This document shows, piece by piece, positions 16,939 to 43,379 of a stretch of 64,000 nt of DNA. Each line of letters starts with the position of its first letter. Position 1 is the first letter of the stretch. Source of the DNA: Fuerstiella marisgermanici. Its GTDB lineage: Bacteria > Planctomycetota > Planctomycetia > Planctomycetales > Planctomycetaceae. Position numbers and translations under genes: made by a program. The notes beneath the pieces are model-generated. The model saw only the letters and a program-made list of their open reading frames with translations. It was not told the origin of the DNA and did not search any database. The stretch covers positions 5,022,001 through 5,086,000 of the forward strand of contig NZ_CP017641.1 of the NCBI RefSeq assembly GCF_001983935.1, read 5' to 3'.

Positions 16939-17293
16939 ATTTACAGCTTCCTGCAGAATTCCCGTGAGAATCGCGTCGTGCGAGACTGCACCACTTGTGG
17001 TTTCGGGATTTGGTGGCTGCGGAAATGCGATAAACCTGTTTCGGAACGTGTTTCGACCGGTATCATTTGGAAGTTAGGCAAAATAAAAGTTCTATCCTCT
17101 GCAGGCGTTAGAACCCGCAGAGTTCCACATCGTGGCTGTAAGATCCAACTTCTTTATCTACATCTCATCACCGGGTTAATGAGCATAGCCATCATTCCGA
17201 TGATTATGCAGAGGGATTCTGCGCGGACGTTGCGCACTCCCGGTGACTCGTTGCCCGCCAGCTCGGGCGGCTTCTGTTAGGAATTATGTACAA
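16939..17293. other. 355-bp divergent intergenic region
   Basis: Lies between the minus-strand secreted protein and the giant plus-strand surface protein. It must contain their promoters. A short hairpin CTGCAGG/CCCGCAG-like is seen near 17099-17119. A plus-strand frame starting at 17243 is open but lacks a signal or Shine-Dalgarno, so the giant gene is started at 17294. Confidence 0.4.
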
Positions 17294-20200
17294 ATGACCA
17301 GTTCGTCATTCGTTGATCGCATCCGCCGCCTGTTTTCCAACGAGAAGAAGTCTGAGATAAAGAAACGCCAACGATATCTTCGACTAACGCAATTGGAAGA
17401 CCGCCGCGTGCTGAATGGTGCGCTCAGCGCGCTGGGCATTGACCTGACCGGTCTTGAGACGCTGACGGTGGAAGACGGCGGCGTTACCGATGTGGGTGAC
17501 GGCTCCGTCACCAATGTCACCCAGACGGTCACGTTGACTCTGGCCGAAGGCACCTGGGCAGATATCAGTGGCCTTAGTAACACACTGTACAACCTGGAAT
17601 CCGGTGGTCAGGTTTTACGCGTCGATGAAACCGTATTGCAGGATGGCGGGTTTGCCGTCGACAGCCTGACAAATGCACTACACATCACCGGCGATGAAAT
17701 GAACCAAACGGTGAACCTTGATCTGGAGGGCGTGGACTTCGTCCCCACTGGCGGTCTGGAATTTTCCGGAAGCGTCAGAAACCTGGCCGGTGACGACGTT
17801 GCTGACAACGATACGCTTACGATCTCTGGTTACGACGTGACGACGTTAACGGTGACTCATTTGGCTGAGGTGGACGGAGCTGGAGATCCGACCACCTCGG
17901 AGAGCGGAGAAGTTGATTTGGACGGCGAAGTGATTCGGTTCAACGAAATCGAACCACTGGCTCTGGGCGGCGATGCCGTCAATATGATTATCAATCTTCC
18001 GGCGGGGGCTGACGCCACTGTGACGTTAAGTGACGACGGTACAGCCAACGACAACGTTTCGCAACTTGATGGAGCCTTCGAGGTCACCGCGTTCACAAAT
18101 CCGACAGCGTCGTTGACGATCAACGACGGCACGGGCGCCAAGGTGATTACGGTTAACGGCATGGACGGGTCTTTCAATGCCAACCTTTCAATTTTGGAGG
18201 ATGACCCAGCCGGTTCGGAGGATAACACGGTCGTTTTCGCTTCTGCTTTGGACACCAACGGAGGCGACCTGACCGTCGAAGCATACGACATCAATGTGAA
18301 CGCTCCGATCGCAACGGACGGCGGCTCTGTAGACTTCGACGCAACCAACGACATCACCAGTAACGCCGCTGGCGATATTACCACGTCAGGAGCTATCGCA
18401 GACGTCGATTCCGGAGCAGTGACAATGGATGCCGGTCGCGACGTTACGCTACTGGGCGACATCACGACTGATGGTTTCGACAACGTCGGACTTGAAGACA
18501 GCGCTGCCGGCGATGTCACGATCACAACCGTAAACGGAAACATCACGACGGCGGATATTAGTGCCGTAGGCGGCGATACCGTGCCAATCGCAAGCATGGG
18601 AGAAGGCGGTCTAATTACGCTCGACGCCAATGATGCGGCCATTGATCTGACGTTTGACCCGAATTCGGCTGTCAATCTGGGTACAGATGAACTGACGTGG
18701 CTCGATCATGGACTGACAACTGGCGAACTGGTCGACTACGACAACGGCGGCGGCGCGGACATCACCGGGTTGACATCGGGGCAGACATACGTGGCAATCG
18801 TCGTCGACGCCGACACGATTCAGTTAGCGCTAAACGCTGCAGACGCAACTGGGGAGACTGCAATTGACCTGATTGCAGTCGGAGCAGGAGTCACGCATAC
18901 GCTTAGTACGCGCCGTGCGGACATAATTGTCGACGGGACAATCAGCACATCCACCGAAGTGGCTGCCAATCCCATGAAGGTGGATATTGATGCGGACCGC
19001 GATGTGCATATCAATCATGCTGTCACGACTCATGGCGGCAGTGTTGATGTGGATGCGGGACGCGATATTACAAGTGCAGCTGCCGGAAGCATCACAACAA
19101 CGGGGGATAAGAGCGACGAGAACAGCGGCAATGTGACAATGGATACCGGACGTAGCATCGACCTGGCCGGTTTTATTGACACCAGTGGAATTGACGTGGT
19201 TAGCAGTCCCGATGTTTTGCTGGCTGGCGAAGGCGGCGACATTACATTGGCGACAGTCGCCGGCAACATTACAACTCAGGCCACAGCCACACTGGATGCC
19301 CGCGGCGGTGATGCCGACGATCCGGTTGACGGCGTTCCCGATGACGAAGGCGGCATCATTACATTGGATGCCAATAACAGCGCCGCGCCGTTGACGTTTG
19401 ATCCGGGGGCAGCAGTGAATCTCGCCACTGAAGAGATCATGTGGCCCGCCCACGGTTTGTCCACCGGCGCCTCTGTGCAGTACGACAGCAATGCCGGCAC
19501 AGATATCGCTCCATTGGTCAATGGCACGACGTATTTTGCGATTGTCGTGGATGGCAATACCATTCAACTGGCAGCTTCAGAGTCTGACGCCGCCACCGGC
19601 ACAGCCATCGATCTGACGTCCGCTGGTGCCGGCGCTGAACACATCCTGTTCCCAATTGGCGATGTCACGGTAGGAGCGGCGGTTGATACGTCAACAGAAT
19701 TGGCGGCAACCAACGTTCACATTCAAGCTCACCGCGATGCAAACATTAATGCGCCGATCACAACTCGCGGAGGATTTGTTGATATCGATGCCGGCCGAGA
19801 TATTCGCAGCGACGCTGCCGGCGACATCGACACACAGGCGGATAAAACGGCAGAACACAGCGGTGAAGTTACACTGGATGCCGAACGCAACGTTAATCTT
19901 TTGGGCGACATTACAACCGACGGATTTATCAACAAGGTAGTGGTCGGCAGCAACGCAGGCGATGTGACAATCAGAACCATAGATGGCGACATCACCACAG
20001 CCGCGATTAGTGCTATCGGCGGCGAAACGGACCCTGTTGACAATATGGGGGAAGGTGGGCTTGTTACTCTGGACGCCAACGATGGCGACGGATCGGGGAC
20101 CGATGGTGACGTGACGACGTCGGGTTCCATCAGCACTTCGACGGAATTGGGTGCGAACCCTGTGAAGGTTGATATTGATGCGGATCGTGACGTGCACATC

Positions 20201-23200
20201 AATCAGATGATCACCACACTCGGCGGCAGCGTGGACGTTGACGCTGGACGTGATGTCACCACACTCGACGACGGCGGCGTCACCCACAACGGCGACATCA
20301 CAACCACAGGCGACAAGATCGACGAAGACAGCGGTGACGTCACCATCCTTGCCGGAAACAACGTGAATCTCGCCGCCAACATCGACACCAGCGGGCTCGA
20401 TAACGCCACCGATGCACTCGACAGCGATGCCGGGACCGTCACGATCACTGCAACCGCCGGAGACATCGAAATCACCGACGGGGACAACGACGGAAACACG
20501 CTCGCCATCGACGGAATCGGAGGAGCAACCACCGATCCTACCATCATGGGCGAAGGGGCCCTCGTCACACTCAATGCGATCGCCGGAAGCGTGACCGTTG
20601 ACGAAGCCATTGCCACTTCCACCGAACTGGCCGACACCGTTAAAGTGGACATCGACGCGGACACCGACATCACCCTCTCTGAAGAAATCACCACACTCGG
20701 CGGAGACGTCGACATCAATGCAGGCGGAAATGTCACCACGCTCGATGACGGTGGAACGACCCACAACGGCGACATCACAACCACCGGCGACAAGATCGAC
20801 GAAGACAGCGGCGACGTCACCATCCTTGCCGGAAACAACGTGAATCTCGCCGCCAACATCGACACCAGCGGGCTCGATAACGCCATCGATGCACTCGACA
20901 GCGATGCCGGGACCGTCACGGTCACAGCAACCGCCGGAGACATCGAAATCACCGACGGGGACAACGACGGAAACACGCTCGCCATCGACGGAATCGGAGG
21001 AGCAACCACCGATCCTAGCATCATGGGCGAAGGGGCCCTCGTCACACTCAATGCGATCGCCGGAAGCGTGACCGTTGACGAAGCCATTGCCACTTCCACC
21101 GAACTGGCCGACACCGTTAAAGTGGACATCGACGCGGACACCGACATCACCCTCTCTGAAGAAATCACCACACTCGGCGGAGACGTCGACATCAATGCAG
21201 GCGGAAATGTCACCACGCTCGATGACGGTGGAACGACCCACAACGGCGACATCACAACCACCGGCGACAAGATCGACGAAGACAGCGGCGACGTCACCAT
21301 CCTTGCCGGAAACAACGTGAATCTCGCCGCCAACATCGACACCAGCGGGCTCGATAACGCCACCGATGCACTCGACAGCGATGCCGGGACCGTCACGATC
21401 ACTGCAACCGCCGGAGACATCGAAATCACCGACGGGGACAACGACGGAAACACGCTCGCCATCGACGGAATCGGAGGAGCAACCACCGATCCTACCATCA
21501 TGGGCGAAGGGGCCCTCGTCACACTCAATGCGATCGCCGGAAGCGTGACCGTTGACGAAGCCATTGCCACTTCCACCGAACTGGCCGACACCGTTAAAGT
21601 GGACATCGACGCGGACACCGACATCACCCTCTCTGAAGAAATCACCACACTCGGCGGAGACGTCGACATCAATGCCGGCGGAAATGTCACCACGCTCGAT
21701 GATGGCGGAACGACCCACAACGGCGACATCACAACCACAGGCGACAAGATCGACGAAGACAGCGGTGACGTCACCATCCTTGCCGGAAACAACGTGAATC
21801 TCGCCGCCAATATCGACACCAGCGGGCTCGATAACGCCACCGATGCACTCGACAGCGATGCCGGGACCGTCACGATCACTGCAACCGCCGGAGACATCGA
21901 AATCACCGACGGGGACAACGACGGAAACACGCTCGCCATCGACGGAATCGGAGGAGCCACCACCGATCCTACCATCATGGGCGAAGGGGCCCTCGTCACA
22001 CTCAATGCGATCGCCGGAAGCGTGACCGTTGACGAAGCCATTGCCACTTCCACCGAACTGGCCGACACCGTTAAAGTGGACATCGACGCGGACACCGACA
22101 TCACCCTCTCTGAAGAAATCACCACACTCGGCGGAGACGTCGACATCAATGCCGGCGGAAATGTCACCACGCTCGATGATGGCGGAACGACCCACAACGG
22201 CGACATCACAACCACAGGCGACAAGATCGACGAAGACAGCGGTGACGTCACCATCCTTGCCGGAAACAACGTGAATCTCGCCGCCAATATCGACACCAGC
22301 GGGCTCGATAACGCCACCGATGCACTCGACAGCGATGCCGGGACCGTCACGATCACTGCAACCGCCGGAGACATCGAAATCACCGACGGGGACAACGACG
22401 GAAACACGCTCGCCATCGACGGAATCGGAGGAGCCACCACCGATCCTACCATCATGGGCGAAGGGGCCCTCGTCACACTCAATGCGATCGCCGGAAGCGT
22501 GACCGTTGACGAAGCCATTGCCACTTCCACCGAACTGGCCGACACCGTTAAAGTGGACATCGACGCGGACACCGACATCACCCTCTCTGAAGAAATCACC
22601 ACACTCGGCGGAGACGTCGACATCAATGCCGGCGGAAATGTCACCACGCTCGATGATGGCGGAACGACCCACAACGGCGACATCACAACCACAGGCGACA
22701 AGATCGACGAAGACAGCGGTGACGTCACCATCCTTGCCGGAAACAACGTGAATCTCGCCGCCAATATCGACACCAGCGGGCTCGATAACGCCACCGATGC
22801 ACTCGACAGCGATGCCGGGACCGTCACGATCACTGCAACCGCCGGAGACATCGAAATCACCGACGGGGACAACGACGGAAACACGCTCGCCATCGACGGA
22901 ATCGGAGGAGCAACCACCGATCCTACCATCATGGGCGAAGGGGCCCTCGTCACACTCAATGCGATCGCCGGAAGCGTGACCGTTGACGAAGCCATTGCCA
23001 CTTCCACCGAACTGGCCGACACCGTTAAAGTGGACATCGACGCGGACACCGACATCACCCTCTCTGAAGAAATCACCACACTCGGCGGAGACGTCGACAT
23101 CAATGCCGGCGGAAATGTCACCACGCTCGATGATGGCGGAACGACCCACAACGGCGACATCACAACCACAGGCGACAAGATCGACGAAGACAGCGGTGAC

Positions 23201-26200
23201 GTCACCATCCTTGCCGGAAACAACGTGAATCTCGCCGCCAATATCGACACCAGCGGGCTCGATAACGCCACCGATGCACTCGACAGCGATGCCGGGACCG
23301 TCACGATCACTGCAACCGCCGGAGACATCGAAATCACCGACGGGGACAACGACGGAAACACGCTCGCCATCGACGGAATCGGAGGAGCAACCACCGATCC
23401 TACCATCATGGGCGAAGGGGCCCTCGTCACACTCAATGCGATCGCCGGAAGCGTGACCGTTGACGAAGCCATTGCCACTTCCACCGAACTGGCCGACACC
23501 GTTAAAGTGGACATCGACGCGGACACCGACATCACCCTCTCTGAAGAAATCACCACACTCGGCGGAGACGTCGACATCAATGCCGGCGGAAATGTCACCA
23601 CGCTCGATGATGGCGGAACGACCCACAACGGCGACATCACAACCACAGGCGACAAGATCGACGAAGACAGCGGCGACGTCACCATCCTTGCCGGAAACAA
23701 CGTGAATCTCGCCGCCAATATCGACACCAGCGGGCTCGATAACGCCACCGATGCACTCGACAGCGATGCCGGCACCGTCACGGTCACTGCAACCGCCGGA
23801 GACATCGAAATCACCGACGGAGACAACGACGGAAACACGCTCGCCATCGACGGAATCGGAGGAGCCACCACCGATCCTACCATCATGGGCGAAGGGGCCC
23901 TCGTCACACTCAATGCGATCGCCGGAAGCGTGACCGTTGACGAAGCCATTGCCACTTCCACCGAACTGGCCGACACCGTTAAAGTGGACATCGACGCGGA
24001 CACCGACATCACCCTCTCTGAAGAAATCACCACACTCGGCGGAGACGTCGACATCAATGCCGGCGGAAATGTCACCACGCTCGATGACGGTGGAACGACC
24101 CACAACGGCGACATCACAACCACAGGCGACAAGATCGACGAAGACAGCGGTGACGTCACCATCCTTGCCGGAAACAACGTGAATCTCGCCGCCAATATCG
24201 ACACCAGCGGGCTCGATAACGCCACCGATGCACTCGACAGCGATGCCGGCACCGTCACGGTCACTGCAACCGCCGGAGACATCGAAATCACCGACGGAGA
24301 CAACGACGGAAACACGCTCGCCATCGACGGAATCGGAGGAGCCACCACCGATCCTACCATCATGGGCGAAGGGGCCCTCGTCACACTCAATGCGATCGCC
24401 GGAAGCGTGACCGTTGACGAAGCCATTGCCACTTCCACCGAACTGGCCGACACCGTTAAAGTGGACATCGACGCGGACACCGACATCACCCTCTCTGAAG
24501 AAATCACCACACTCGGCGGAGACGTCGACATCAATGCCGGCGGAAATGTCACCACGCTCGATGATGGCGGAACGACCCACAACGGCGACATCACAACCAC
24601 AGGCGACAAGATCGACGAAGACAGCGGCGACGTCACCATCCTTGCCGGAAACAACGTGAATCTCGCCGCCAATATCGACACCAGCGGGCTCGATAACGCC
24701 ACCGATGCACTCGACAGCGATGCCGGGACCGTCACGATCACTGCAACCGCCGGAGACATCGAAATCACCGACGGGGACAACGACGGAAACACGCTCGCCA
24801 TCGACGGAATCGGAGGAGCAACCACCGATCCTACCATCATGGGCGAAGGGGCCCTCGTCACACTCAATGCGATCGCCGGAAGCGTGACCGTTGACGAAGC
24901 CATTGCCACTTCCACCGAACTGGCCGACACCGTTAAAGTGGACATCGACGCGGACACCGACATCACCCTCTCTGAAGAAATCACCACACTCGGCGGAGAC
25001 GTCGACATCAATGCCGGCGGAAATGTCACCACGCTCGATGATGGCGGAACGACCCACAACGGCGACATCACAACCACAGGCGACAAGATCGACGAAGACA
25101 GCGGTGACGTCACCATCCTTGCCGGAAACAACGTGAATCTCGCCGCCAATATCGACACCAGCGGACTCGATAATGCCACCGGCGTTCTTGATAGCGATGG
25201 TGGAGACGTGACGATTATGGCTGGCACCTTAATTACGACAGGTCACCTCAATACATCCGGCGGTGATGTCGCCGTGGCCACAGGCGGCGACGCAGGCCAG
25301 ATCACATTTAATGCGGGCACAACGATCACCGTCAATGGCAACCTGACTGCCGCAGGTGGAAGTGCAGATCCCACTGGTGTGCGAGGTGACGGAACGGCAA
25401 TTGACTTCGACGCTCCTGTACTGATTGATGCGATTACTAATCCTCAGTTCGTTGGTGAGGCACCAACGATTACGACAAGCGGCGATACTTCAGGCGCAGT
25501 GACATTTAATTCAACTGTCGACGGTGTCGTGGCCGGAGCGAACGATTTTGTTATCGTAGCGGGCGCAACGGATACCCCGCCAACCACAACCTTTGGAGAT
25601 ATCACCTTTAACGCGGCTGTGGGAGCAACCACTCAACTGGGTGACGTTTCGATCGATACCGTGAACGATCTGAACATCAACTCTACGGTTGACGCCACCA
25701 GCCTGACACAGCTTTCCGGAACGGGCAACACCACATTTGTTGATGATGTGACTACTGATGCGGGCATCGATACGCCGGTTGGCATTTTCAATGGCTCGAG
25801 TGGCGTAAATGCCGGAACAGATCAGATCACGATCATCGGGCACGGGCTGACAACCGGCGACTCTGTCGTATATCGCGATGGTGGCGGAACGACTGTTCCA
25901 GGGCTGGTTTCCGGGCAAACCTATATTGCCATTGTTGATAACGCCAACACACTTCGATTAGCCGTCCACCACGCAAACGCTGGTAGCGGAACGGCCGTCG
26001 ACATTACAGGTGCGGGCGTTGGAGCATTCCATGATGTAACCAAAATTGCGGTGTCGGCGAACACCGCTGGTACCATTACAGTGCTGGAAGACATTAACAC
26101 TGAAGCCGGGCTGACAGACGCCGGTACAGCGGCCACCGGTGAGCAGATTATCCTGTCGGGGAATATTGTCTCGATTTCGGCGGGATCAGAAATCTCAACC

Positions 26201-27607
26201 GCAACCGCTGCAGGGCCTACCGCCTCCAATGCTTACACGGCAACTGGAGATTCGGTCAGCATCTCCGGCACCACCGGTGTTGCATTTGGTATCGGGGCCG
26301 AAGTCATTACGGACGGCGGCCTTGCGAATACTTTCGCCGTCACCTTACCGCCCGGCTTTATTGCTGCGGTTGCTGGCGCGGATGGCGTGCCTTTCGGTAT
26401 GGGCGGAAACGAGTTTTTGTACGCATACGACGTGATTCTGGGAGCGACCGGTGAAATCAACATGCAGGTTCACATTGACTGGCGTGACCCTTCAAACGGC
26501 GACATCGCACCGACGAGTGAAGCAGGGATCTTCAATACCCTGACTTCTGATCGCTATCAGACTTTCACGATTGGCGATGGCGGCCAGCTACTTCGGATTG
26601 GCCATGTTTACGACGACTTGACTGACCTTGGCCCATTTTCAACCGCAAACCTTGTGAAGTTCTTCGCAGATTTCTCACTCAGCCACCACGACTCCATCAA
26701 TGTGGATTCCGTGAATATCCTGCAATCGACGACCGACGACCCGGCGACCGGAACCTTCAATCCATTTGACCGGACAAATCTGCCTCCTGCGGATGCAAAC
26801 TTCACGTCACCAGGTTCGCCGGACGAAGCTGCTGACAACTTGGACCTCCACTTCGAAACCGGTTTGTTCGAGGTTATTATTCAAACCCCTCCCCGATTCG
26901 TGATTCAACCGGATCCACCACCGCCCGAACCACCGGCCGCACCTGCACCGGCACCACCTGTTGCTCCGGCGAAGCCTGTGTTTGTGGCGGCTGTGATCCC
27001 CGAAGAAGCTCCGTTGACTTCGTATTCGACTCAGTCGGAAGACTACTTCGAACTGCGGCGAAACAAGAGTACGGAACCTGTTGAAGGTTACGAGCATATT
27101 GATGACGACATCGGCTGGAAGCTGCTTCAGCCAAAACGCCTGAAAGAATGGGTCGTCAACCAGGACCTGAACGGTAGCAACTTCGAATTGTGGCTGATCA
27201 CGACCAAGGTCAGAAACGGTCAGGACGTGACCTTCGAACGTCCGGTGCTGAAGTTCGACGTTGTGGACCAGCAACCATTCCCGATGACGGAAGAATTGCC
27301 AGCGAATCTTGAGCTGCCCGAATTGCGACTCGAACGTCTGGACGTGGACGAAAACGGCAACATCATCGAAGGCGATCCGCCAGCGGAGCCTGATACGGAT
27401 TCTGTCGAAAACATTGAAGGCGAAAGCAGCCTGATCATTCCGGAACAGGATTCCATGAGCCAATTGAAAACGAGTTCCGACGCGACCGCCCGGTCGGCCA
27501 TCGCCGGATTGGCGGTTTCCGGAGTGTTGGCGGCCAAACATCGCGGGCGGCCGCATTCGGGCACAACCTCGCCACTCGCTCGCGTCCTGAACGGCCTGCG
27601 GAAGTAA
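17294..27607 (+). CDS. Giant surface protein with tandem repeats (planctomycete extracellular motif)
   Basis: A 3,437-residue predicted extracellular adhesin or matrix protein; function inferred. Residues about 1-40 carry a basic stretch and LTQLEDRRVLNGA, a variant of the planctomycete N-terminal export motif (LExRxLL type). Then come imperfect beta-helix-like repeats with GDITTxG, VTLDAxRxVxL and DIDADRD patterns, and 10.3 copies of a 159-residue repeat (residues 989-2578 for the ten whole copies). A third beta module, a proline-rich hinge near 26,900 (PPPPEPPAAPAPAPP), and a C-terminal region follow; it ends in a weakly hydrophobic, then basic, tail that might be an anchor. Many D-x-D-x-D spacings suggest calcium binding. 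The ATG at 17294 was chosen as start. Confidence 0.85.
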   Translation: MTSSSFVDRIRRLFSNEKKSEIKKRQRYLRLTQLEDRRVLNGALSALGIDLTGLETLTVEDGGVTDVGDGSVTNVTQTVTLTLAEGTWADISGLSNTLYNLESGGQVLRVDETVLQDGGFAVDSLTNALHITGDEMNQTVNLDLEGVDFVPTGGLEFSGSVRNLAGDDVADNDTLTISGYDVTTLTVTHLAEVDGAGDPTTSESGEVDLDGEVIRFNEIEPLALGGDAVNMIINLPAGADATVTLSDDGTANDNVSQLDGAFEVTAFTNPTASLTINDGTGAKVITVNGMDGSFNANLSILEDDPAGSEDNTVVFASALDTNGGDLTVEAYDINVNAPIATDGGSVDFDATNDITSNAAGDITTSGAIADVDSGAVTMDAGRDVTLLGDITTDGFDNVGLEDSAAGDVTITTVNGNITTADISAVGGDTVPIASMGEGGLITLDANDAAIDLTFDPNSAVNLGTDELTWLDHGLTTGELVDYDNGGGADITGLTSGQTYVAIVVDADTIQLALNAADATGETAIDLIAVGAGVTHTLSTRRADIIVDGTISTSTEVAANPMKVDIDADRDVHINHAVTTHGGSVDVDAGRDITSAAAGSITTTGDKSDENSGNVTMDTGRSIDLAGFIDTSGIDVVSSPDVLLAGEGGDITLATVAGNITTQATATLDARGGDADDPVDGVPDDEGGIITLDANNSAAPLTFDPGAAVNLATEEIMWPAHGLSTGASVQYDSNAGTDIAPLVNGTTYFAIVVDGNTIQLAASESDAATGTAIDLTSAGAGAEHILFPIGDVTVGAAVDTSTELAATNVHIQAHRDANINAPITTRGGFVDIDAGRDIRSDAAGDIDTQADKTAEHSGEVTLDAERNVNLLGDITTDGFINKVVVGSNAGDVTIRTIDGDITTAAISAIGGETDPVDNMGEGGLVTLDANDGDGSGTDGDVTTSGSISTSTELGANPVKVDIDADRDVHINQMITTLGGSVDVDAGRDVTTLDDGGVTHNGDITTTGDKIDEDSGDVTILAGNNVNLAANIDTSGLDNATDALDSDAGTVTITATAGDIEITDGDNDGNTLAIDGIGGATTDPTIMGEGALVTLNAIAGSVTVDEAIATSTELADTVKVDIDADTDITLSEEITTLGGDVDINAGGNVTTLDDGGTTHNGDITTTGDKIDEDSGDVTILAGNNVNLAANIDTSGLDNAIDALDSDAGTVTVTATAGDIEITDGDNDGNTLAIDGIGGATTDPSIMGEGALVTLNAIAGSVTVDEAIATSTELADTVKVDIDADTDITLSEEITTLGGDVDINAGGNVTTLDDGGTTHNGDITTTGDKIDEDSGDVTILAGNNVNLAANIDTSGLDNATDALDSDAGTVTITATAGDIEITDGDNDGNTLAIDGIGGATTDPTIMGEGALVTLNAIAGSVTVDEAIATSTELADTVKVDIDADTDITLSEEITTLGGDVDINAGGNVTTLDDGGTTHNGDITTTGDKIDEDSGDVTILAGNNVNLAANIDTSGLDNATDALDSDAGTVTITATAGDIEITDGDNDGNTLAIDGIGGATTDPTIMGEGALVTLNAIAGSVTVDEAIATSTELADTVKVDIDADTDITLSEEITTLGGDVDINAGGNVTTLDDGGTTHNGDITTTGDKIDEDSGDVTILAGNNVNLAANIDTSGLDNATDALDSDAGTVTITATAGDIEITDGDNDGNTLAIDGIGGATTDPTIMGEGALVTLNAIAGSVTVDEAIATSTELADTVKVDIDADTDITLSEEITTLGGDVDINAGGNVTTLDDGGTTHNGDITTTGDKIDEDSGDVTILAGNNVNLAANIDTSGLDNATDALDSDAGTVTITATAGDIEITDGDNDGNTLAIDGIGGATTDPTIMGEGALVTLNAIAGSVTVDEAIATSTELADTVKVDIDADTDITLSEEITTLGGDVDINAGGNVTTLDDGGTTHNGDITTTGDKIDEDSGDVTILAGNNVNLAANIDTSGLDNATDALDSDAGTVTITATAGDIEITDGDNDGNTLAIDGIGGATTDPTIMGEGALVTLNAIAGSVTVDEAIATSTELADTVKVDIDADTDITLSEEITTLGGDVDINAGGNVTTLDDGGTTHNGDITTTGDKIDEDSGDVTILAGNNVNLAANIDTSGLDNATDALDSDAGTVTVTATAGDIEITDGDNDGNTLAIDGIGGATTDPTIMGEGALVTLNAIAGSVTVDEAIATSTELADTVKVDIDADTDITLSEEITTLGGDVDINAGGNVTTLDDGGTTHNGDITTTGDKIDEDSGDVTILAGNNVNLAANIDTSGLDNATDALDSDAGTVTVTATAGDIEITDGDNDGNTLAIDGIGGATTDPTIMGEGALVTLNAIAGSVTVDEAIATSTELADTVKVDIDADTDITLSEEITTLGGDVDINAGGNVTTLDDGGTTHNGDITTTGDKIDEDSGDVTILAGNNVNLAANIDTSGLDNATDALDSDAGTVTITATAGDIEITDGDNDGNTLAIDGIGGATTDPTIMGEGALVTLNAIAGSVTVDEAIATSTELADTVKVDIDADTDITLSEEITTLGGDVDINAGGNVTTLDDGGTTHNGDITTTGDKIDEDSGDVTILAGNNVNLAANIDTSGLDNATGVLDSDGGDVTIMAGTLITTGHLNTSGGDVAVATGGDAGQITFNAGTTITVNGNLTAAGGSADPTGVRGDGTAIDFDAPVLIDAITNPQFVGEAPTITTSGDTSGAVTFNSTVDGVVAGANDFVIVAGATDTPPTTTFGDITFNAAVGATTQLGDVSIDTVNDLNINSTVDATSLTQLSGTGNTTFVDDVTTDAGIDTPVGIFNGSSGVNAGTDQITIIGHGLTTGDSVVYRDGGGTTVPGLVSGQTYIAIVDNANTLRLAVHHANAGSGTAVDITGAGVGAFHDVTKIAVSANTAGTITVLEDINTEAGLTDAGTAATGEQIILSGNIVSISAGSEISTATAAGPTASNAYTATGDSVSISGTTGVAFGIGAEVITDGGLANTFAVTLPPGFIAAVAGADGVPFGMGGNEFLYAYDVILGATGEINMQVHIDWRDPSNGDIAPTSEAGIFNTLTSDRYQTFTIGDGGQLLRIGHVYDDLTDLGPFSTANLVKFFADFSLSHHDSINVDSVNILQSTTDDPATGTFNPFDRTNLPPADANFTSPGSPDEAADNLDLHFETGLFEVIIQTPPRFVIQPDPPPPEPPAAPAPAPPVAPAKPVFVAAVIPEEAPLTSYSTQSEDYFELRRNKSTEPVEGYEHIDDDIGWKLLQPKRLKEWVVNQDLNGSNFELWLITTKVRNGQDVTFERPVLKFDVVDQQPFPMTEELPANLELPELRLERLDVDENGNIIEGDPPAEPDTDSVENIEGESSLIIPEQDSMSQLKTSSDATARSAIAGLAVSGVLAAKHRGRPHSGTTSPLARVLNGLRK
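20258..25180 (+). repeat. Tandem array of 477-bp repeats (10 whole copies plus a partial)
   Basis: Ten consecutive units of exactly 477 bp (159 codons) start at 20258 and end at 25027. A partial eleventh runs to about 25180 and then diverges. Units differ only at a handful of positions, mostly silent. Units 4 and 5 share all marker bases seen, as do 6 and 7; units 8 and 9 share a distinct set. This pattern implies recent duplication in blocks or gene conversion. The period is a multiple of three, so the frame is always kept. Confidence 0.97.
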
Positions 27608-27792
27608 GAAACGCCTATGGCGGTCCAGACACGGGAAATTCGATGCCTAAAGCCTCGGCTTCGTGGTAAAGTATCGGGCGGGACAGCCTGTTTTCCCACA
27701 GAAAAGGGCGTTCACGCGATGCCGGAAAATCCGGCGTTCGACATGGATGATCGTCGTCACTTTCAAAACCTGTAAACCCCGGATTGCCGGCT

Positions 27793-30700
27793 ATGAGTAA
27801 GTCACAACGCGGCGGAAACCGCCCCTCCAAAAGCAGCAGTGCTCACGGAACCCTTCTTCCAGGATCGGCAAACCCCGGGGCCAGCGACAAAACCCAATCA
27901 ACGGTTGAGGCTGAACCGCAGGCGACGGCATCGCCTTCAACGGCGTCAGGGACCGACCGACCTGCCGTCTATGATACCCAGGCAGCTCCGCCGATCGCCC
28001 GCCAATCACCGCCACAGCCCGGGTCGCATGCTGCGCAGTCAGAATCAAGACCGTCAGCCGCCCCTCGAAAGTTGCCATCGCAGCAGGATCTGCGAGCCGT
28101 CACTGCCACGCAGGTACCACCCGCAAGCGGCGCCGGCGTCATCGGCAAAATGACGCGGGCCCATTCCAAATCTGTGTCGTTCCCGGATCTCGACAACATC
28201 ACGGAACCGGAAGGCTTTGCCACAGCGCCGGACGATGACTCCAATGTCGAAAACAAGGCACAAAGCGAAGGCGGCGCCGAAGGGAAAACGGTTCAGCAGC
28301 GATCGCGTCGACGAGTGCCAGGCAAGAGTACCTGGAACCTGCGGATCAAGCAGCGTGGCGTGGCAGGACATATCTCCGGGATCATTAATGAGATCCCACT
28401 GGATCCCAGCAAAGCCACCGGGCTGCAGTCAGCACTCACGGTTGACAATTCGGCGGCAGAATACGACATCATCGATGAACTCGGCGCAGGCAACATGGGC
28501 ATCGTTTATCGAGCTCGCCAGACGTCATTGAATCGTGAGCTGGCGATCAAGACGCTGAAGCCGGATTCGACCAACGCCGAATATGATCAGGCCATGTTCG
28601 TTTCGGAAGCCGTCGTCACGGCGAACCTCGTTCATCCGAACATTGTGCCCATCCATGACCTTGGCCGCACAGAAGACGGCAAGTTGTTTTATTCGATGAA
28701 ACAGGTCAACGGCATTCCGTGGCAGAACACCATTCGGGAAAATTCGGCGGAAGCGAATCTTGAAATCTTCCTGAAAGTCTGCGACGCCGTAGCTTACGCT
28801 CATTCGCGAGGCGTCGTGAATCGCGATTTGAAGCCGGAGAATGTAATCGTCGGCAGCTATGGCGAAGTGATTGTGCTGGACTGGGGACTGGCCATCACCA
28901 CGTCGGCCTTCGCAAAAAAAGACAGCGTGATTGTCGACTTCCGAGGCGGCGGGGGAACTCCGGCCTACATGGCTCCGGAGCTTCTTGATGAAGACGTCAG
29001 CCGAGTCGGGCCGCACAGCGACATCTATCTTCTTGGCGCGATTCTGTTCGAACTGCTTGAGGGGATTCAGCCACATTGCCTGCGGAAAATGTGGGACAGC
29101 GACGATCCGGAAGAACAGATGAACATCGTTCTATGGGCCGTCATGCAAAACGAAATCGAACCTGACGTGCAAAACGATGGTGAACTCATGCAGATCGCCC
29201 TCAAAGCCATGTCGACTCAGCCCGAAGATCGCTATGACACGGTGGAAGAGTTGCAGGAAGCGATTCGTGAATACCGCATCACGGGCCGCGCGGAAGAATT
29301 GATGCTGAAAGTCGAACAGAAAGGAACGTCAACTTACACCGAATACCAAAGTGCCGTCGCGCTGTACGAAGAAGCGTTGCGTAAGTGGCCCAGCAACCGA
29401 CGAGCTCAGGATGGAAACAAAAAGGCTCGCCTGGCGTATGCCGAGCTGGCTCAAAAGAAAGGTGACATTGACCTCGGCCTGCAGGTTATCCCCAGCGACG
29501 AAGATCGCCGGTTTCAGACGGTGCGTAAAAAGCTGAAACGGACGAAGCGGACGCGTTCAATCATTAGAGCGACATGGAGCTTGTTGCTGGTCTCTGCGAT
29601 CGGACTGTCTGCATTCCTGCTGCTCACGCAAGCGGAGCTGCGAAATGGGCGGACCGCATTGGCACAGCAGGAAATTGAGCTCGACCAAAAGACAAAACTT
29701 GCCGCAAAGAAAACTGCAGAAGCGAAAGCAGCCACGGAGGTTGCCACAGCGAAGACTGAGGAAGCAAACGAAGCAGAGGCAAGAATCTTAGCTGCGAAAG
29801 CGGATTTGGATAAGGCAATGCTTGCCCTGCAGGAAGCAAAGCAGACAAACCTGGACCTTGCGCATGAAATTGGCATAAAGAAAAAAGAACTTGATACAAA
29901 GACGAAAGAAGCGGAGACAGCTACCAAAGCCGCGGAAGACGCAAGGACCCAGCTTGAAGCAGAAACTCGCGCCGCTATCGCCGCCAAGGCTGAAGCCGAG
30001 GAAGCTAAAAAACTGACCATTATCGCGAGGTTCGATGGGCTCACCGAGCGAATCAACGCGATGATCAGTATTCGTGACTACGGCCGAGTATCTAAGTGGG
30101 CACTCGAAGCCGAAAAACTTGGCGAACGCCACGATTTCATTGGCGAAGAAAAAATCGAGGCCATCAAGAAACAGCGACTGCATGCAATTGAGGCAATGAC
30201 CGGACATTCTGCAATACAGAGGCCTGGACATATTGAACACGCCATTATCAGCCGCAATGGCACAACGCTGGTGACCGACACTCGAGACGAAAACGCGCCT
30301 CGTGACGCCAAACTGATGGTATTTCGAGATCGCAAACTTGCAGACTTAGCACCTTCGCACGGCCTACCTCTCAAATTCACGGGCCGCAAAGTTCGGGACC
30401 TTTCGGTTTCCAGCAGCGGCGATGTCATTTGCGTTGTGGACGATCAAAGCATTCACGTCTGGCAATGGAACGGAACCAATTACCATGCCGTCAATGTCAC
30501 ACAACCGACCGAGATCAAGCAGAAAGGACTGAAACTAGAGCAGGGCCTGGTGAGTGACGATGGTCTGCACGTGTTTGTGATCGCACGGAATAGGTTTACA
30601 CACGTACTTGCGTGGTCGCTGCAGGACAACTCGGGCCAACATCAAGCGACAGTACAACTTGAAATCGAAGATGATGACTTTAATGGTGTTCGGGATGCGG

Positions 30701-33693
30701 TCCTGCCACCGGACAAATCGGTGCTGATTGTCGCCCTGGGCGACGGCAGCTGCCGAGCCATCCCCCTGAAATGTGATGGTGCCAACGTGCAGATAGCTGG
30801 CCGAGTACCGGGCAACGTCATCGGCTCCGATTTCCCAGCTCTCAGTGGCCTTGACGATCTTGGGACACAGGATGAAGGCGGTCGAAACGGGCGGTTCCAG
30901 CCGCGAACCCTTTCGTTGTCACGCGACGGCTCAGAGCTCGTGTTGACTGAAGGCAATCGTTTCTTTGTCGTGCCGCAAAACAAAAATGCAAGGGCCGATG
31001 AGTTTCCTTATCGCAGTCCGAAACAACTGGCTGGTTTCGCCACGACCACATGCAATCACGATGGCATAATTCGCGCGATGGATGTCTCTAAGGATGGCCA
31101 GACCGTAATAACCGCCCAGGGAAAATTCATCCAGGTGTGGAAGAAACGCGGCAATGCATTCACACTTGCTGAAATCCCTGGCTTGCTCATCGAGAAGTAT
31201 GTCGCCGGCCATAGCCATTCCATCAGCACACTTGCGTTCGAAGGGACGTCGTCAAATTACATTCTGTCCGTAGGTCAGGACAATGTTGTGCGACGCTGGA
31301 ATCTGGACGAGTATGAAAATTACGTCGCCGGCTTCGAACAGATGATGGACGAACTGGAAGCGCTTGCTGACCCAGACCTAAGCGTGTCGCGATCGGCACC
31401 AGGCGTACGAGTGCCGCACGAAAACCGCAAGCCAAGTCGCTATATCCTGACGTCCGGTCCGCAGCCGCCGAATCAACTGCTGGCGAGTCAGCAGCCACCT
31501 CAAATTAGACCGCCGTCAAACGCCAAGCGGTTTCGTCAGGCACGTCACGTGTATTCTGCTGAATTCAGCAACGATGATTCTCGACTAGTCGTCGGAGCCG
31601 ACGACTTGGCAGCCCATTCGTTTAACAGCGTAACGGCCGAGCAAACGTTGAGTGCTCACATGCTGCTGCCGCGTGACCCGTTTTTCGCGCCGGAACGCAA
31701 CAACTTCCTGGAAGGTCACGTTCCGGAAATTGTGTCGATGACATTTCTACCGCCCGATGGCAAACAGCTGCTGACGCTGGACTACTTCGGATCGATCAGT
31801 GTCTGGGATGCCTTCGATGATGAAAATGGCATCGGTTACGAACTATCGCGACCGCTGCCCAGTGAGCCGGTCAACCAGGCGGCACCTGGGCAACCGTATG
31901 AAGTCGAAGATTCGTATTGCGACGTCGCCGTGTCTCCCGACGGCAAGTATGTGATTGCTGGCGGAGTGCGCAACGACGGCAACACAAATATGCGGGAATC
32001 AAAAGACGAATACTTCGCGGCACTGTGGAAGGTCGACGACTTCATGAAATCGGCCACACCTGGGCCGTATCGGGAACTACGCGATGTTCATGACTGGCGC
32101 ATCACGGCCGCCGCATTTTCACCGGATGGCACGAAAGTCATCACTGCCGGGCGACGAGGCAGGTTCGCATTGTGGGATTTTGAGAACAACAAAGTGTTGG
32201 CCATGGCTGAGGGCGGGCATGGTTCGGACGGCGTGTCAGGAGTGTTCTTCGTTTCGGACGACACCATGATTTCTGCCGGATTCGATGGGAATGTCTTCCG
32301 CTGGTCGATCGACGGCGACAAGCTGATCCCAACCGCAATCCAGCGAGACACAAACCAATCGGCCGTGCCGGACTACATCATTCGCATGCGTCCCTCACCC
32401 GACCGCAGCCAATTCATCACGTCTGATCTGACCAAGGATCCCAAAACCGGCGTCTATCTACTGAAACTCAACTCCTGGTCTTCGCAGGATGGCTGGCAGG
32501 CGACCCTGCCAGTTGATATCGAAGCTCCGTTAAATGACCTGGGGAGCCCCTACCGACACGACATTTCCTGGGCAGACGACAGTAAGCAGGTATTGTTTGT
32601 CCATGACAAGAAGCTGCTGATACTGGACAGCGACGGATGGAAAGTCCAAGAAGGTCTGCAGTTGCCTGCCACCGAATCCGCCATCCGCGGTGCCTTTGCC
32701 CCGCTTGTGGAGAACGAACTGCGAATTGCCACCTTTGATGGCCGGTTCGCGAGTTTATGGAACGTGATGAATGGGGACTTAATCACGCGGTTTCGTTCAC
32801 ACCTGTCCAGCGTGCGAGCCGGCTTTTCGTCCGACAGGCGTTTTGTTGTGACAGCCAGCGATTCGATTCGAGTTTTCAATTCTGACGAGTCGAGCCCCGA
32901 TCATGGACGGCCGCTACTTCGGCTCTCACAGGATGCCACAGGACACACGCTGCCTGCTGACGCCGCTTTCAGCCCGATTGACGGCGACTATCGCTTTGCC
33001 AGTATCGACGCGGCTGGCACGATTAGCTTGTGGGACTGGGGGCCGGGAATGCAGCCGCCCAAAACGCCCGTGTTTAAGATCAGGCCTGATGATATTGATG
33101 CCGACGCCGCTCGCACCCTGGCGAATTCGCTTTGCTGGAGCGACGACGGGCAACTGTTAGCGTCGACGCATTCCGGAAAAGTGCGACTCTGGAAAGTGCA
33201 GGGCGACACCCTTCAGCCGGTTCCATTAGCGCTGCCGGAAAAATTGTATCCGGAAGATCTCACGATCGATGATATTGATTTTTCCTCCAACGGCCAGTTG
33301 CTGGTGGCGGGCGGCGTGTATGACCGAAACGCTTATGGCCTGATCTGGAAAATCGCAAATGGAGCGGCGTCGCCCGTGGCTGAAATTGATGCGGAGGACC
33401 GCCACGAAGGCATTCGCGGCATCACGGCTATTGTTATCAACGACGTGACCAACGAAGTGGTTTCCGGTGGTGCCGATTCTCGGCTTCAACGTTGGCAGAT
33501 CGGTGGTACCGATAATGACGAGCTAACCGTATTGCCTTGGATTGGGGAACGTGAAGGCCGCGGCCCGAACAGCGAGGACAGGTTCACCAATCCTCACAGC
33601 AGCGCAATTACCTCGCTGGATACAGCCGCCGACGGACGGTTTGTATCAACCGACGAAGACGGCTGGATCGTCATTTGGCCGTCACAGCGGTGA
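27793..33693 (+). CDS. Transmembrane Ser/Thr protein kinase with WD40-type sensor region
   Basis: A 1,966-residue Hanks-type kinase. Disordered, proline/serine-rich N-terminus to about residue 220; kinase domain about 224-500 with glycine loop LGAGNMGIVYRA, ATP-binding K253, catalytic loop NRDLKPENV (D345) and DWG at 363-365, then PAYMAPE. Thus the HRD histidine is Asn, and DFG is DWG. A tetratricopeptide-like stretch follows, a transmembrane helix at about 592-615, an Ala/Glu/Lys coiled coil to about 750, and about 1,200 residues of degenerate WD40 repeats. The start is ATG 27793 (not TTG 27784). It lies 186 bases after the giant surface gene on the same strand. Substrate unknown. Confidence 0.9.
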   Translation: MSKSQRGGNRPSKSSSAHGTLLPGSANPGASDKTQSTVEAEPQATASPSTASGTDRPAVYDTQAAPPIARQSPPQPGSHAAQSESRPSAAPRKLPSQQDLRAVTATQVPPASGAGVIGKMTRAHSKSVSFPDLDNITEPEGFATAPDDDSNVENKAQSEGGAEGKTVQQRSRRRVPGKSTWNLRIKQRGVAGHISGIINEIPLDPSKATGLQSALTVDNSAAEYDIIDELGAGNMGIVYRARQTSLNRELAIKTLKPDSTNAEYDQAMFVSEAVVTANLVHPNIVPIHDLGRTEDGKLFYSMKQVNGIPWQNTIRENSAEANLEIFLKVCDAVAYAHSRGVVNRDLKPENVIVGSYGEVIVLDWGLAITTSAFAKKDSVIVDFRGGGGTPAYMAPELLDEDVSRVGPHSDIYLLGAILFELLEGIQPHCLRKMWDSDDPEEQMNIVLWAVMQNEIEPDVQNDGELMQIALKAMSTQPEDRYDTVEELQEAIREYRITGRAEELMLKVEQKGTSTYTEYQSAVALYEEALRKWPSNRRAQDGNKKARLAYAELAQKKGDIDLGLQVIPSDEDRRFQTVRKKLKRTKRTRSIIRATWSLLLVSAIGLSAFLLLTQAELRNGRTALAQQEIELDQKTKLAAKKTAEAKAATEVATAKTEEANEAEARILAAKADLDKAMLALQEAKQTNLDLAHEIGIKKKELDTKTKEAETATKAAEDARTQLEAETRAAIAAKAEAEEAKKLTIIARFDGLTERINAMISIRDYGRVSKWALEAEKLGERHDFIGEEKIEAIKKQRLHAIEAMTGHSAIQRPGHIEHAIISRNGTTLVTDTRDENAPRDAKLMVFRDRKLADLAPSHGLPLKFTGRKVRDLSVSSSGDVICVVDDQSIHVWQWNGTNYHAVNVTQPTEIKQKGLKLEQGLVSDDGLHVFVIARNRFTHVLAWSLQDNSGQHQATVQLEIEDDDFNGVRDAVLPPDKSVLIVALGDGSCRAIPLKCDGANVQIAGRVPGNVIGSDFPALSGLDDLGTQDEGGRNGRFQPRTLSLSRDGSELVLTEGNRFFVVPQNKNARADEFPYRSPKQLAGFATTTCNHDGIIRAMDVSKDGQTVITAQGKFIQVWKKRGNAFTLAEIPGLLIEKYVAGHSHSISTLAFEGTSSNYILSVGQDNVVRRWNLDEYENYVAGFEQMMDELEALADPDLSVSRSAPGVRVPHENRKPSRYILTSGPQPPNQLLASQQPPQIRPPSNAKRFRQARHVYSAEFSNDDSRLVVGADDLAAHSFNSVTAEQTLSAHMLLPRDPFFAPERNNFLEGHVPEIVSMTFLPPDGKQLLTLDYFGSISVWDAFDDENGIGYELSRPLPSEPVNQAAPGQPYEVEDSYCDVAVSPDGKYVIAGGVRNDGNTNMRESKDEYFAALWKVDDFMKSATPGPYRELRDVHDWRITAAAFSPDGTKVITAGRRGRFALWDFENNKVLAMAEGGHGSDGVSGVFFVSDDTMISAGFDGNVFRWSIDGDKLIPTAIQRDTNQSAVPDYIIRMRPSPDRSQFITSDLTKDPKTGVYLLKLNSWSSQDGWQATLPVDIEAPLNDLGSPYRHDISWADDSKQVLFVHDKKLLILDSDGWKVQEGLQLPATESAIRGAFAPLVENELRIATFDGRFASLWNVMNGDLITRFRSHLSSVRAGFSSDRRFVVTASDSIRVFNSDESSPDHGRPLLRLSQDATGHTLPADAAFSPIDGDYRFASIDAAGTISLWDWGPGMQPPKTPVFKIRPDDIDADAARTLANSLCWSDDGQLLASTHSGKVRLWKVQGDTLQPVPLALPEKLYPEDLTIDDIDFSSNGQLLVAGGVYDRNAYGLIWKIANGAASPVAEIDAEDRHEGIRGITAIVINDVTNEVVSGGADSRLQRWQIGGTDNDELTVLPWIGEREGRGPNSEDRFTNPHSSAITSLDTAADGRFVSTDEDGWIVIWPSQR

Positions 33694-40869: not shown

Positions 40870-43170
40870 CTAACCGTCCGTCGCCCCGGAATTTGTCGGT
40901 GGCTGCGAATAGCCTGCCGACCTTACAGCAATTTCGACCATTAACTTTTTCATGTCGAATTCGTGTTCTGCGAAATAGTTGGCCAGTTGGTCAATTGTAT
41001 CCGGGCCATAGGCCAGTATCGGCTGTTGGACCATGTGGTGGAACAGTTGACGGGCAAAAGAACGGTGAGTTTCGTGACTTTTGACCAGGAATTCAGCTAA
41101 TTCCGTCGCCCCAACAAATTCCACGCTTTCTCCTGACCTCGGCCGATATCCGCCCGACGCATCGATCGGTTTTCCTTTTTCTTCTTCTCGAAAACGTCCG
41201 ACGGCGTCAAACTGTTCGAGCGGAAAGCCGAGTGCGTTGATCATTTTGTGACAATTAAAGCACATTGTCGGGCTGGTCTGCCGACTGGTCCTTTCCCGAG
41301 TCGTCAGGTCCGGCTCCAAATCCGGCGGGACCGGCGCGACCGAATCCGGCGGCGGCTTGAGGGCTCGCCCCAAAATCCCGCGTGATAAAAACACGCCTCG
41401 GTGAATCGGCGAACTGGCATTGTGATACGCCAAACCGCTTAACATAAACGGGTGCGACGTGATGCCGGACCTGTGATTCGGTTCGAAGGCCACCTTTTGA
41501 AAACCGTCTTCCGGCGGCTTTGGCGCCTTGTAGAATTCGGCCATCCGTTCGTTCATCCACGTGTCTTTTGTGGTAAGCAGAATGCGGAAGCCGTCGTCAG
41601 AATCGGCCGCTTCTTCCAGTAACAGCTCCAGCGACGTCCTCATGTCGGACACCAGTTCCGGTGTAAAGTCCGGATACAGTTCTGAATCCTTGCCGACTTC
41701 TTCCAGCCGTTCAAGATTCATCCACACGCGCAGAAATTCCTGCAGCCGTACCTTGCCCCGGTAGGAACTCAACAACCGCCACGCCTGGTCTCGCAACCCC
41801 TTGTCGTCTTTGATCCAGCCTTTGCTCGCGGCCTGCAACAGGTTGCTATCGGGAATAGAATCCATCAGCGCAAACGACAGTCGTGACGCCTGTGTAAACA
41901 AATCCTGCTCGCCGGTAACTTCGCGATACAGGAAGCGAGGCGATTTCAGAATCGCCAGCAGCGAACGACGCACTGCATCGTCCGTGTGTTTTGCAGATTC
42001 GAATTGAGCTGCCACGTAAGTCTGCTTTTCAGCGTCGGAAACCGGTCGACGGAAGGCTCGGTAAGCGAACGTTTCGCAGAATTCACGCAGCTTCTTCGTG
42101 CGGTCCTCGTCACTGTCATCCTTCTTCAGTTTGGCCATCGATGGCAGCAGCGTGAAAAACCTGTCGACGGCTTCAATCGCCGCGAAGGTTGTGGCTTCGT
42201 CCCATTCCTGTGACACCGACGTGCCTCGAATGTAGCCGTCGCTGCGATCGTCCGGTGGAAACGAAGCTTCCACAACAACCACTTCCGGCGTAGTTTGAGG
42301 CGACAGATGCCGCGCGGGAATTGGTTGGTCGACACCGTGAGGCGGTTTCCACCACAGGCCGACGGATGCTGTTTTTTCCTTGAAGGTAAACCATTCCAGT
42401 TTCAGCGGATACAACCGGCCCGCCAACAGAAAGCGTGAGCCGCGATATTCCGTGTCGTAACCAGACTTGACCCACGCATCAATCAGAGGCGTGTCTTTAC
42501 CGTTGACGTACAGTCGAGCTCCGTTTTCGGTTTTCACAACAAAGTCATACCAACCAGTTTCGTCAACAAGCAGCGAACCTTCCCAGTGAATCGAAAACTC
42601 TTCGTTCTTCGGAATCTTCTCCTTGTCCGGCGTCGCTTCTCCAAACTGAAAGTCGATGACCGGATCAATCCGCTCGAACGCTTTGTCTTTGTGACGGAAA
42701 TGACGTGAAGTGTAATATCGAGCCGCCAGGCCCTGTTTATCATCAGGCTGGTTGAACCACGCAAAGCTCTCGCCCAGATCCGCGATTGCGTTGCGGTATT
42801 GCGATACCGTCAGGCGGCTGAGTTTCCGGCGAGGCGGGTTGATGCGTGCCTGAGCTTCCGGTGAATAGAACGCTTGCTGCATCCATTCAGCCACGGCTTT
42901 GGCATCGTCACCGGTACACAATTCCGGTTCGCCTTCCGGCATGGCCTTGTCGATGTATTCGGCAAGATCGATCGTGGGCTGATCGCCAAACAGGGCTTCC
43001 GGGTAGGTGTCTGAAGTCCCTTCGCCCTTCGCGCCATGGCAGCTGGCGCATTGGTCCGCAAAGACCTTCGCGCCACGCTGTTGAGTGGCGTCGTCAGACA
43101 CCACCTGTGTGCAGAACGGGGGCGCTAACAGCAGCAGAATGCCGAGGATTTTGCAAAAAGGTACGCGCAT
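40870..43170 (-). CDS. DUF1587/DUF1592/DUF1588/DUF1585 cytochrome-type protein with PA14 domain
   Basis: A predicted exported haem protein, 766 residues from ATG 43170 (start chosen for its signal peptide MRVPFCKILGILLLLAPPFC). Order: a cytochrome c-type CASCH site near residue 43, DUF1587 (RRKLSRLTVSQYRNAI), a PA14-like beta domain of about 150 residues (SIHWEGSLLVDETGWYDFVVK), then DUF1592, DUF1588 and DUF1585 regions with a second CFNCH motif. A longer upstream in-frame start (43263) lacks a signal peptide. The pairing with DUF1552 is usual for planctomycetes; the electron path and substrate are unknown. Confidence 0.9.
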   Translation of the reverse strand: MRVPFCKILGILLLLAPPFCTQVVSDDATQQRGAKVFADQCASCHGAKGEGTSDTYPEALFGDQPTIDLAEYIDKAMPEGEPELCTGDDAKAVAEWMQQAFYSPEAQARINPPRRKLSRLTVSQYRNAIADLGESFAWFNQPDDKQGLAARYYTSRHFRHKDKAFERIDPVIDFQFGEATPDKEKIPKNEEFSIHWEGSLLVDETGWYDFVVKTENGARLYVNGKDTPLIDAWVKSGYDTEYRGSRFLLAGRLYPLKLEWFTFKEKTASVGLWWKPPHGVDQPIPARHLSPQTTPEVVVVEASFPPDDRSDGYIRGTSVSQEWDEATTFAAIEAVDRFFTLLPSMAKLKKDDSDEDRTKKLREFCETFAYRAFRRPVSDAEKQTYVAAQFESAKHTDDAVRRSLLAILKSPRFLYREVTGEQDLFTQASRLSFALMDSIPDSNLLQAASKGWIKDDKGLRDQAWRLLSSYRGKVRLQEFLRVWMNLERLEEVGKDSELYPDFTPELVSDMRTSLELLLEEAADSDDGFRILLTTKDTWMNERMAEFYKAPKPPEDGFQKVAFEPNHRSGITSHPFMLSGLAYHNASSPIHRGVFLSRGILGRALKPPPDSVAPVPPDLEPDLTTRERTSRQTSPTMCFNCHKMINALGFPLEQFDAVGRFREEEKGKPIDASGGYRPRSGESVEFVGATELAEFLVKSHETHRSFARQLFHHMVQQPILAYGPDTIDQLANYFAEHEFDMKKLMVEIAVRSAGYSQPPTNSGATDG

Positions 43171-43379
43171 GAAAATTCGTTGTATGGGTGCGGAAGGTGG
43201 GTGAAATTGGGCCGCAGGAAGGAAGTGTATTGTACCACGTGGATTTTCCGTTCCAACGAGCAACTGTGTTGTATCGCGAAGGATGCCGGGTTTTGAAGAT
43301 CTGGCAAAAAGTCGCCTTCTGAGTTACCCTCATGTTGTGTCGCGTCTTTCGCAATGTGCCGTTTTTGGGAATTTGAGCC

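Follow-up and report, generated by a model that had tools for sequence, protein, structure and literature searches.

The window, a 64-kb stretch of DNA from Fuerstiella marisgermanici, contains on its plus strand a giant open reading frame (ORF) with an array of near-identical repeats, followed on the same strand by a gene for a protein kinase with WD40 repeats. The features of the two genes are as follows, with the basis for each in brackets.

17243..27607, plus strand: giant ORF, 3,454 codons from the first GTG (ORF list, translation)
17294..17473, plus strand: N-terminal segment with the LExRRVLNG motif (translation, comparison with the G006 relative)
18400..20281, plus strand, approximate limits: diverged modules of the same kind as the repeat unit (self-comparison and protein matches)
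20282..25181, plus strand: near-identical array of 477-bp (159-aa) units, 10.27 copies (Tandem Repeats Finder, lag comparison, copy comparison)
20687..22117, plus strand: three units that were modelled, predicted as an all-beta solenoid with mean pLDDT 80.6 and pTM 0.86 (structure prediction)
26165..27604, plus strand: conserved C-terminal domain, at whose end a short hydrophobic segment is followed by a basic tail (family search)
27784..33693, plus strand: Ser/Thr protein kinase domain, hydrophobic segment and WD40 repeats, 1969 aa (Pfam, sequence)

Tandem Repeats Finder, ORF analysis and comparison of the copies confirmed the ten near-identical 477-bp repeats that had been noticed in a preliminary description, and the period, equal to 159 codons, is in frame within the ORF at 17,243–27,607. 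Of the span given there, 20258–25180, the end was right within 1 base and the start was 24 bases too early, the true start being 20,282. Tandem Repeats Finder itself reported 20,210–25,181, with a period of 477, 10.4 copies, 98% matches and 0% indels; by lag comparison, the ~120 bases 5′ of 20,282 are a diverged version of the corresponding part of the unit. The units are rich in Asp. Only one other tandem array, with a 13-bp period, was found in the window (Tandem Repeats Finder, periods up to 500), and in 20 stretches of 20 kb from the same genome (400 kb, 2,500 bases of which were masked), arrays with a period of at least 30 reached no more than 2.3 copies.

Some other signals were set aside. 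Two minus-strand ORFs that run antisense over the array (19691–25057 and 20203–25227, 1,788 and 1,674 aa) were judged to be by-products of the period, since it is divisible by three and those frames are without stops. Minus-strand terminator-like sites numbered 16 vs 11.5 (SD 3.0) in shuffled sequences and were discounted because ten of them, one per copy, are a single sequence repeated. Promoter-like sites showed no excess (4, with 4.5 expected). The G+C content of the window averages 56.5%.

The likelier start of the giant ORF is an ATG at 17,294, chosen by eye against the N terminus of the relative in G006, described below. Its LExRRVLNG motif resembles what we take to be the planctomycete LEPR-XLL signal, and the N-terminal segment had no NCBIfam match at E 0.01. 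Upstream of the array, a protein query of two units has matches of 33–42% identity in three stretches. Near the 5′ side, related stretches form two pairs, one with 70% identity over 224 nt and the other with 76% over 131 nt, in agreement with the earlier remark that the flanking repeats are strongly diverged. For the C-terminal domain (480 residues), the predicted model is poor (mean pLDDT 35.5), with residues ~291–370 reaching ~64–81. No Pfam adhesin or secretion domain was found in the giant protein at E 0.01. Matches to Band_7, DUF6888 and ADAMTS_spacer1 over the repeats passed the curated Pfam cut-offs as whole-protein sums, with no single stretch doing so, and in our judgement these are summed weak chance matches.

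When the ten complete copies are compared in pairs, they differ at 0–12 positions per 477 bases (mean 4.96, or 1.04%), and two sets of neighbors, copies 4 and 5 and copies 6 and 7, are identical. The near-identity of the copies at silent sites, also pointed out in the preliminary description, holds, yet the few differences that are present are mostly silent: over all copies, 15 columns vary and 12 of these are synonymous. Random changes would be expected to give a synonymous share of 25–29%, and even against a deliberately high 35%, the binomial p is 0.0005. Since the differences are mostly synonymous and the frame is intact, the protein sequence has evidently been subject to selection.

Have the copies exchanged sequence? 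The 13 biallelic columns in the ten complete copies give 78 pairs of sites, 25 of which fail the four-gamete test; Rm is 4, corresponding to at least four exchange events (Hudson-Kaplan). In recombination-free simulations, incompatible pairs averaged 0.07 with a maximum of 13, and none of 20,000 runs reached 25. Although the null model (coalescent trees with 16 mutations) is simple and ignores out-of-register duplication, such duplication is itself exchange. The copies have therefore recombined with one another. Low divergence, identical neighbors and the shuffling of variants between copies support the suggestion, made from the first inspection, of recent expansion or homogenization.

This particular unit appears not to be conserved across the taxonomic family. 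At E 0.001, it was found in at least 2 of 170 family genomes (a lower bound, with up to 13 candidates scored per genome), namely its own and G006, a genome of the same genus in which the unit is 57% identical. The G006 gene is in two pieces, with its N terminus on contig C337 and its last 1,197 residues on C179, where a kinase gene follows; we infer that the pieces are one gene. Its visible repeats are modules of the same kind, 77–90% alike in DNA over 163–283 bases, and a near-identical array is absent from the visible part of the gene. The break between the pieces was not taken to indicate that an array was left unresolved, as the repeat at the edge is only 89.6% alike over 163 bases. A search of genome contigs yielded no relative when the repeat unit was the query; the same kind of search with the C-terminal alignment gave one named record, CAJWGB010000179.1, from an uncultured Planctomycetaceae MAG.

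The C-terminal domain is shared by a family of genes. In a single-sequence search (up to nine candidates scored per genome, 35 rows merged into 33 loci), it was present in at least 29 of the 170 family genomes, and a 13-row profile (up to four candidates per genome) found it in at least 41 genomes of a class-wide sample of 397, including 7 of the 8 genomes of the genus. Eleven of the 41 lie outside the taxonomic family and match at E 1e-17 to 1e-33. In-frame arrays with a period of 200 or more occur at no fewer than 7 of the 33 loci, the window included, many of the genes being cut by contig ends. The six other arrays are listed here with period, copies and matches.

G147 (L120 3–1591, contig G147:C139): 399 bp, 4.0 copies, 94%; the contig starts inside the array (Tandem Repeats Finder)
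G007: 273 bp, 2.2 copies, 92%; near the contig start
G006, second locus: 348 bp, 2.1 copies, 78%
G004: 216 bp, 3.7 copies, 77%
G136: periods of 213, 426 and 639 bp, 74%
G050: 222 bp, 11.0 copies, 67%

In uniformity, the array in the window exceeds all six. For G147, an ungapped lag comparison gives 319 mismatches in 1,190 positions, which we ascribe to a 3-base indel that is visible in the translation, and the 94% value is used instead; by eye, the unit of this array reads unlike that of the window.

Could the array be a neutral accident, the recent expansion of a slippage-prone stretch in a giant gene under weak constraint, with a copy number that has no function? That the unit was not found in 168 of the 170 family genomes, among the candidates scored, would fit, and the arrays of relatives use other units, which would follow if amplification can affect any stretch. 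However, 12 of the 15 variable columns are synonymous and the frame is intact, which argues for selection on the protein, and in-frame arrays recur within one gene family. We therefore regard a functionless expansion as unlikely, though worth keeping in mind, and favor a stalk that was lengthened and kept uniform by recombination.

The proposal of a stalk draws on the three-unit model, which is based on an alignment of six sequences taken from the window and a single relative, three of the six being almost the same. Foldseek gave 275 matches to the PDB at E 10 with this model, the best having an E of 0.006 and none reaching 0.001, and nearly all of the 50 listed among these 275 are β-solenoids. 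VIA-align placed two EtpA structures first and third, namely the secretion domain (8cpk; Z 25.0, rmsd 3.4, 293 aligned) and EtpA 8vbb (Z 23.2, rmsd 3.7, 343 aligned); the second-ranked CsgA has a Z of 24.5 but a larger rmsd of 8.2. A PDB sequence search with a profile of the repeat returned chance-level matches only (FGFR3, E 0.44 and 0.97). From the model, we predict that the units fold as a parallel β-helix, with the adhesin EtpA the nearest structure. The model's strand list, read by eye, has about five rungs per 159-residue unit. As a β-helix rises 0.48 nm per rung, each unit would contribute ~2.4 nm, and ten units would form a rod of roughly 25 nm.

The predicted fold, near that of a secreted adhesin, and the N-terminal motif make a surface location plausible and suggest that the giant protein is exported. 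We take EtpA to be a two-partner-secreted adhesin of the filamentous haemagglutinin type. The predicted fold of the repeats resembles such adhesins, EtpA ranking first and third, whereas the C-terminal domain is different and a kinase gene is the neighbor. Since no TPS or haemagglutination-activity domain was found in the giant protein (Pfam and NCBIfam, E 0.01), we do not apply the label of two-partner-secreted adhesin (TpsA) despite the similar-looking fold.

It is also conceivable that every unit can bind a ligand such as calcium or a polysaccharide and that copy number tunes avidity, not length. Many of the 50 VIA-align rows are polysaccharide-acting β-helices by title, a Ca-dependent β-helical antifreeze protein is also matched (Z 20.1, rmsd 3.1, 282 aligned), and Asp-rich units would suit this role. 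However, a shared fold is no proof of function and no binding site was identified, and we consider binding by each unit rather improbable as the explanation of the array, although it is compatible with the one that we favor. An assembly artefact, in which the reads did not span the array and the true copy number differs, could account for copies that are 100% identical, but it is very unlikely given that the array is 4.9 kb in a single contig of 8,920,478 bases, that most copies have their own combinations of variants and that the frame is unbroken.

If the repeats form a rod-like stalk, what is the role of the neighboring kinase? Pfam matches within 27,784–33,693 are to a protein kinase domain at E 8e-34 and to WD40 repeats at E 3e-30, and one hydrophobic segment between the two parts, judged by eye, is apparently membrane spanning. 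For planctomycete kinase-WD40 proteins, the available text of PMC11032199 predicts the kinase to be in the cytoplasm and the WD40 repeats in the periplasm. The WD40 part of the kinase in the window probably lies outside the cytoplasm.

Twenty-nine of the 33 loci that have the C-terminal domain, the window included, encode a relative of this kinase directly 3′ in the same orientation, with 180–1,620 bases between the match to the domain and the match to the kinase. The kinase frame has 1,890–2,169 codons at 16 loci, and several other loci show only its beginning. The window's own genome contributes two of the 29 pairs, which are ~70 kb apart. The second of these (L088, G000:C1:4959500–4979400) is a diverged giant-protein/kinase pair in which the frame of the first protein has 1094 codons. 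At three loci without a kinase relative found (in G138, G122 and G129), the contig ends within 1.1 kb downstream, and the G122 and G129 sequences are weak members that were missed on re-search. In G123, no kinase was detected as far as the contig end. A different large gene follows there (L117 4079 onward, G123:C481), with a 1,331-codon frame and an LEERVVLA motif. An extra locus obtained with the class-wide profile, on G003:C107, is also followed by a kinase match in the same orientation. The kinase query has at least 62 matches in its own genome (61 of 134 candidates scored), and from this number we estimate that a chance neighbor would be present within 2 kb on one strand at ~1–2% of loci. 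In our search of the literature on giant genes, repeats, WD40 kinases, LEPR-XLL and planctomycetes, which covered few subscription journals, no account of the pair was found.

We think it likely that the locus specifies a rod-like envelope protein, with a stalk that is lengthened and kept uniform by recombination, and a kinase that reads its state. The giant protein, which is probably exported, would be a rod-shaped β-helix with the array as its central stalk. The copy number of the array would have grown via recombination between out-of-register copies, by unequal crossover or slippage; exchange between copies would keep the units alike, while selection would purge most amino-acid changes. 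The protein would probably serve in attachment or in the structure of the envelope, and the kinase would sense the state of that structure; we infer both a function in adhesion and a coupling of the kinase to the giant protein. Strains are predicted to differ in the length of the array; the genomes compared here represent each species once. A broader possibility, which we advance tentatively and consider less than even, is that the two genes constitute a conserved planctomycete envelope system, in which a giant β-helix rod with the shared C-terminal domain, or whatever this rod binds, is sensed by the outer WD40 propellers of a transmembrane Ser/Thr kinase, and that lineages re-set the length by amplifying different units.

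By itself, the array is a further example of the known high-identity repeat arrays. Periscope Proteins (SasG, Rib and Sgo_0707, with Esp and CdrA also named) were detected with a threshold of more than 50 residues that are at least 80% identical (PMC8201768, available text), and the 159-aa units, with a mean DNA difference of 1.04%, lie within it. As in the proteins described there, the tandem repeats are very alike in DNA, the stalk is predicted to be elongated and the protein is predicted to be exported. However, the Periscope Proteins that have structures consist of tandem folded domains (PMC8201768), while a continuous β-helix is predicted for the window protein, which also differs in being planctomycete, in having no recognized wall anchor and in having a kinase gene next to it. 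In the available main text of PMC8201768, neither "Planctomyc" nor "solenoid" occurs.

In the portion of PMC5177795 that was accessible, giant genes are those above a 5-kb threshold, more than 90% encode surface proteins or PKS/NRPS, "kinase" occurs 0 times and "repeat" once. The planctomycete gene in the window, at 10.4 kb, is giant by that threshold and is below the limits of 5,000 residues and 15 kb given in the accessible parts of PMC11573180 and PMC8303584, respectively. With the planctomycete Ser/Thr kinases that have WD40 arrays (PMC11032199), the window kinase shares the order of kinase then WD40; unlike those kinases as described in the text available, its gene adjoins that of a giant β-helix protein, and "giant" and "neighbor" each occur 0 times in that main text. 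In Rhodopirellula baltica, RB11766, which is beside the giant gene RB11769, was suggested as its possible regulator (PMC2754498, available text). RB11766 is termed a hypothetical protein there, and its likeness to the window lies in the idea of a neighboring regulator.

What is new here is the recurrent pairing of giant protein and kinase and the presence of different arrays in one gene family. High-identity arrays are familiar mainly as a means of tuning the length of surface proteins in host-colonizing bacteria. An array in a giant protein, predicted to be a β-helix, of an environmental planctomycete, within a gene family whose lineages amplify different units, offers a natural experiment on the evolution of long β-helices, and the recurrent kinase neighbor is a first handle on the role of one group of planctomycete giant genes.

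Elsewhere in the window, a FliG gene is present at 1647–2606, and the neighboring genes on the same strand may form a flagellar cluster. Cytochrome-type planctomycete proteins with PSCyt/PSD domains are encoded on the minus strand at 40870–43263 and 48756–52154.
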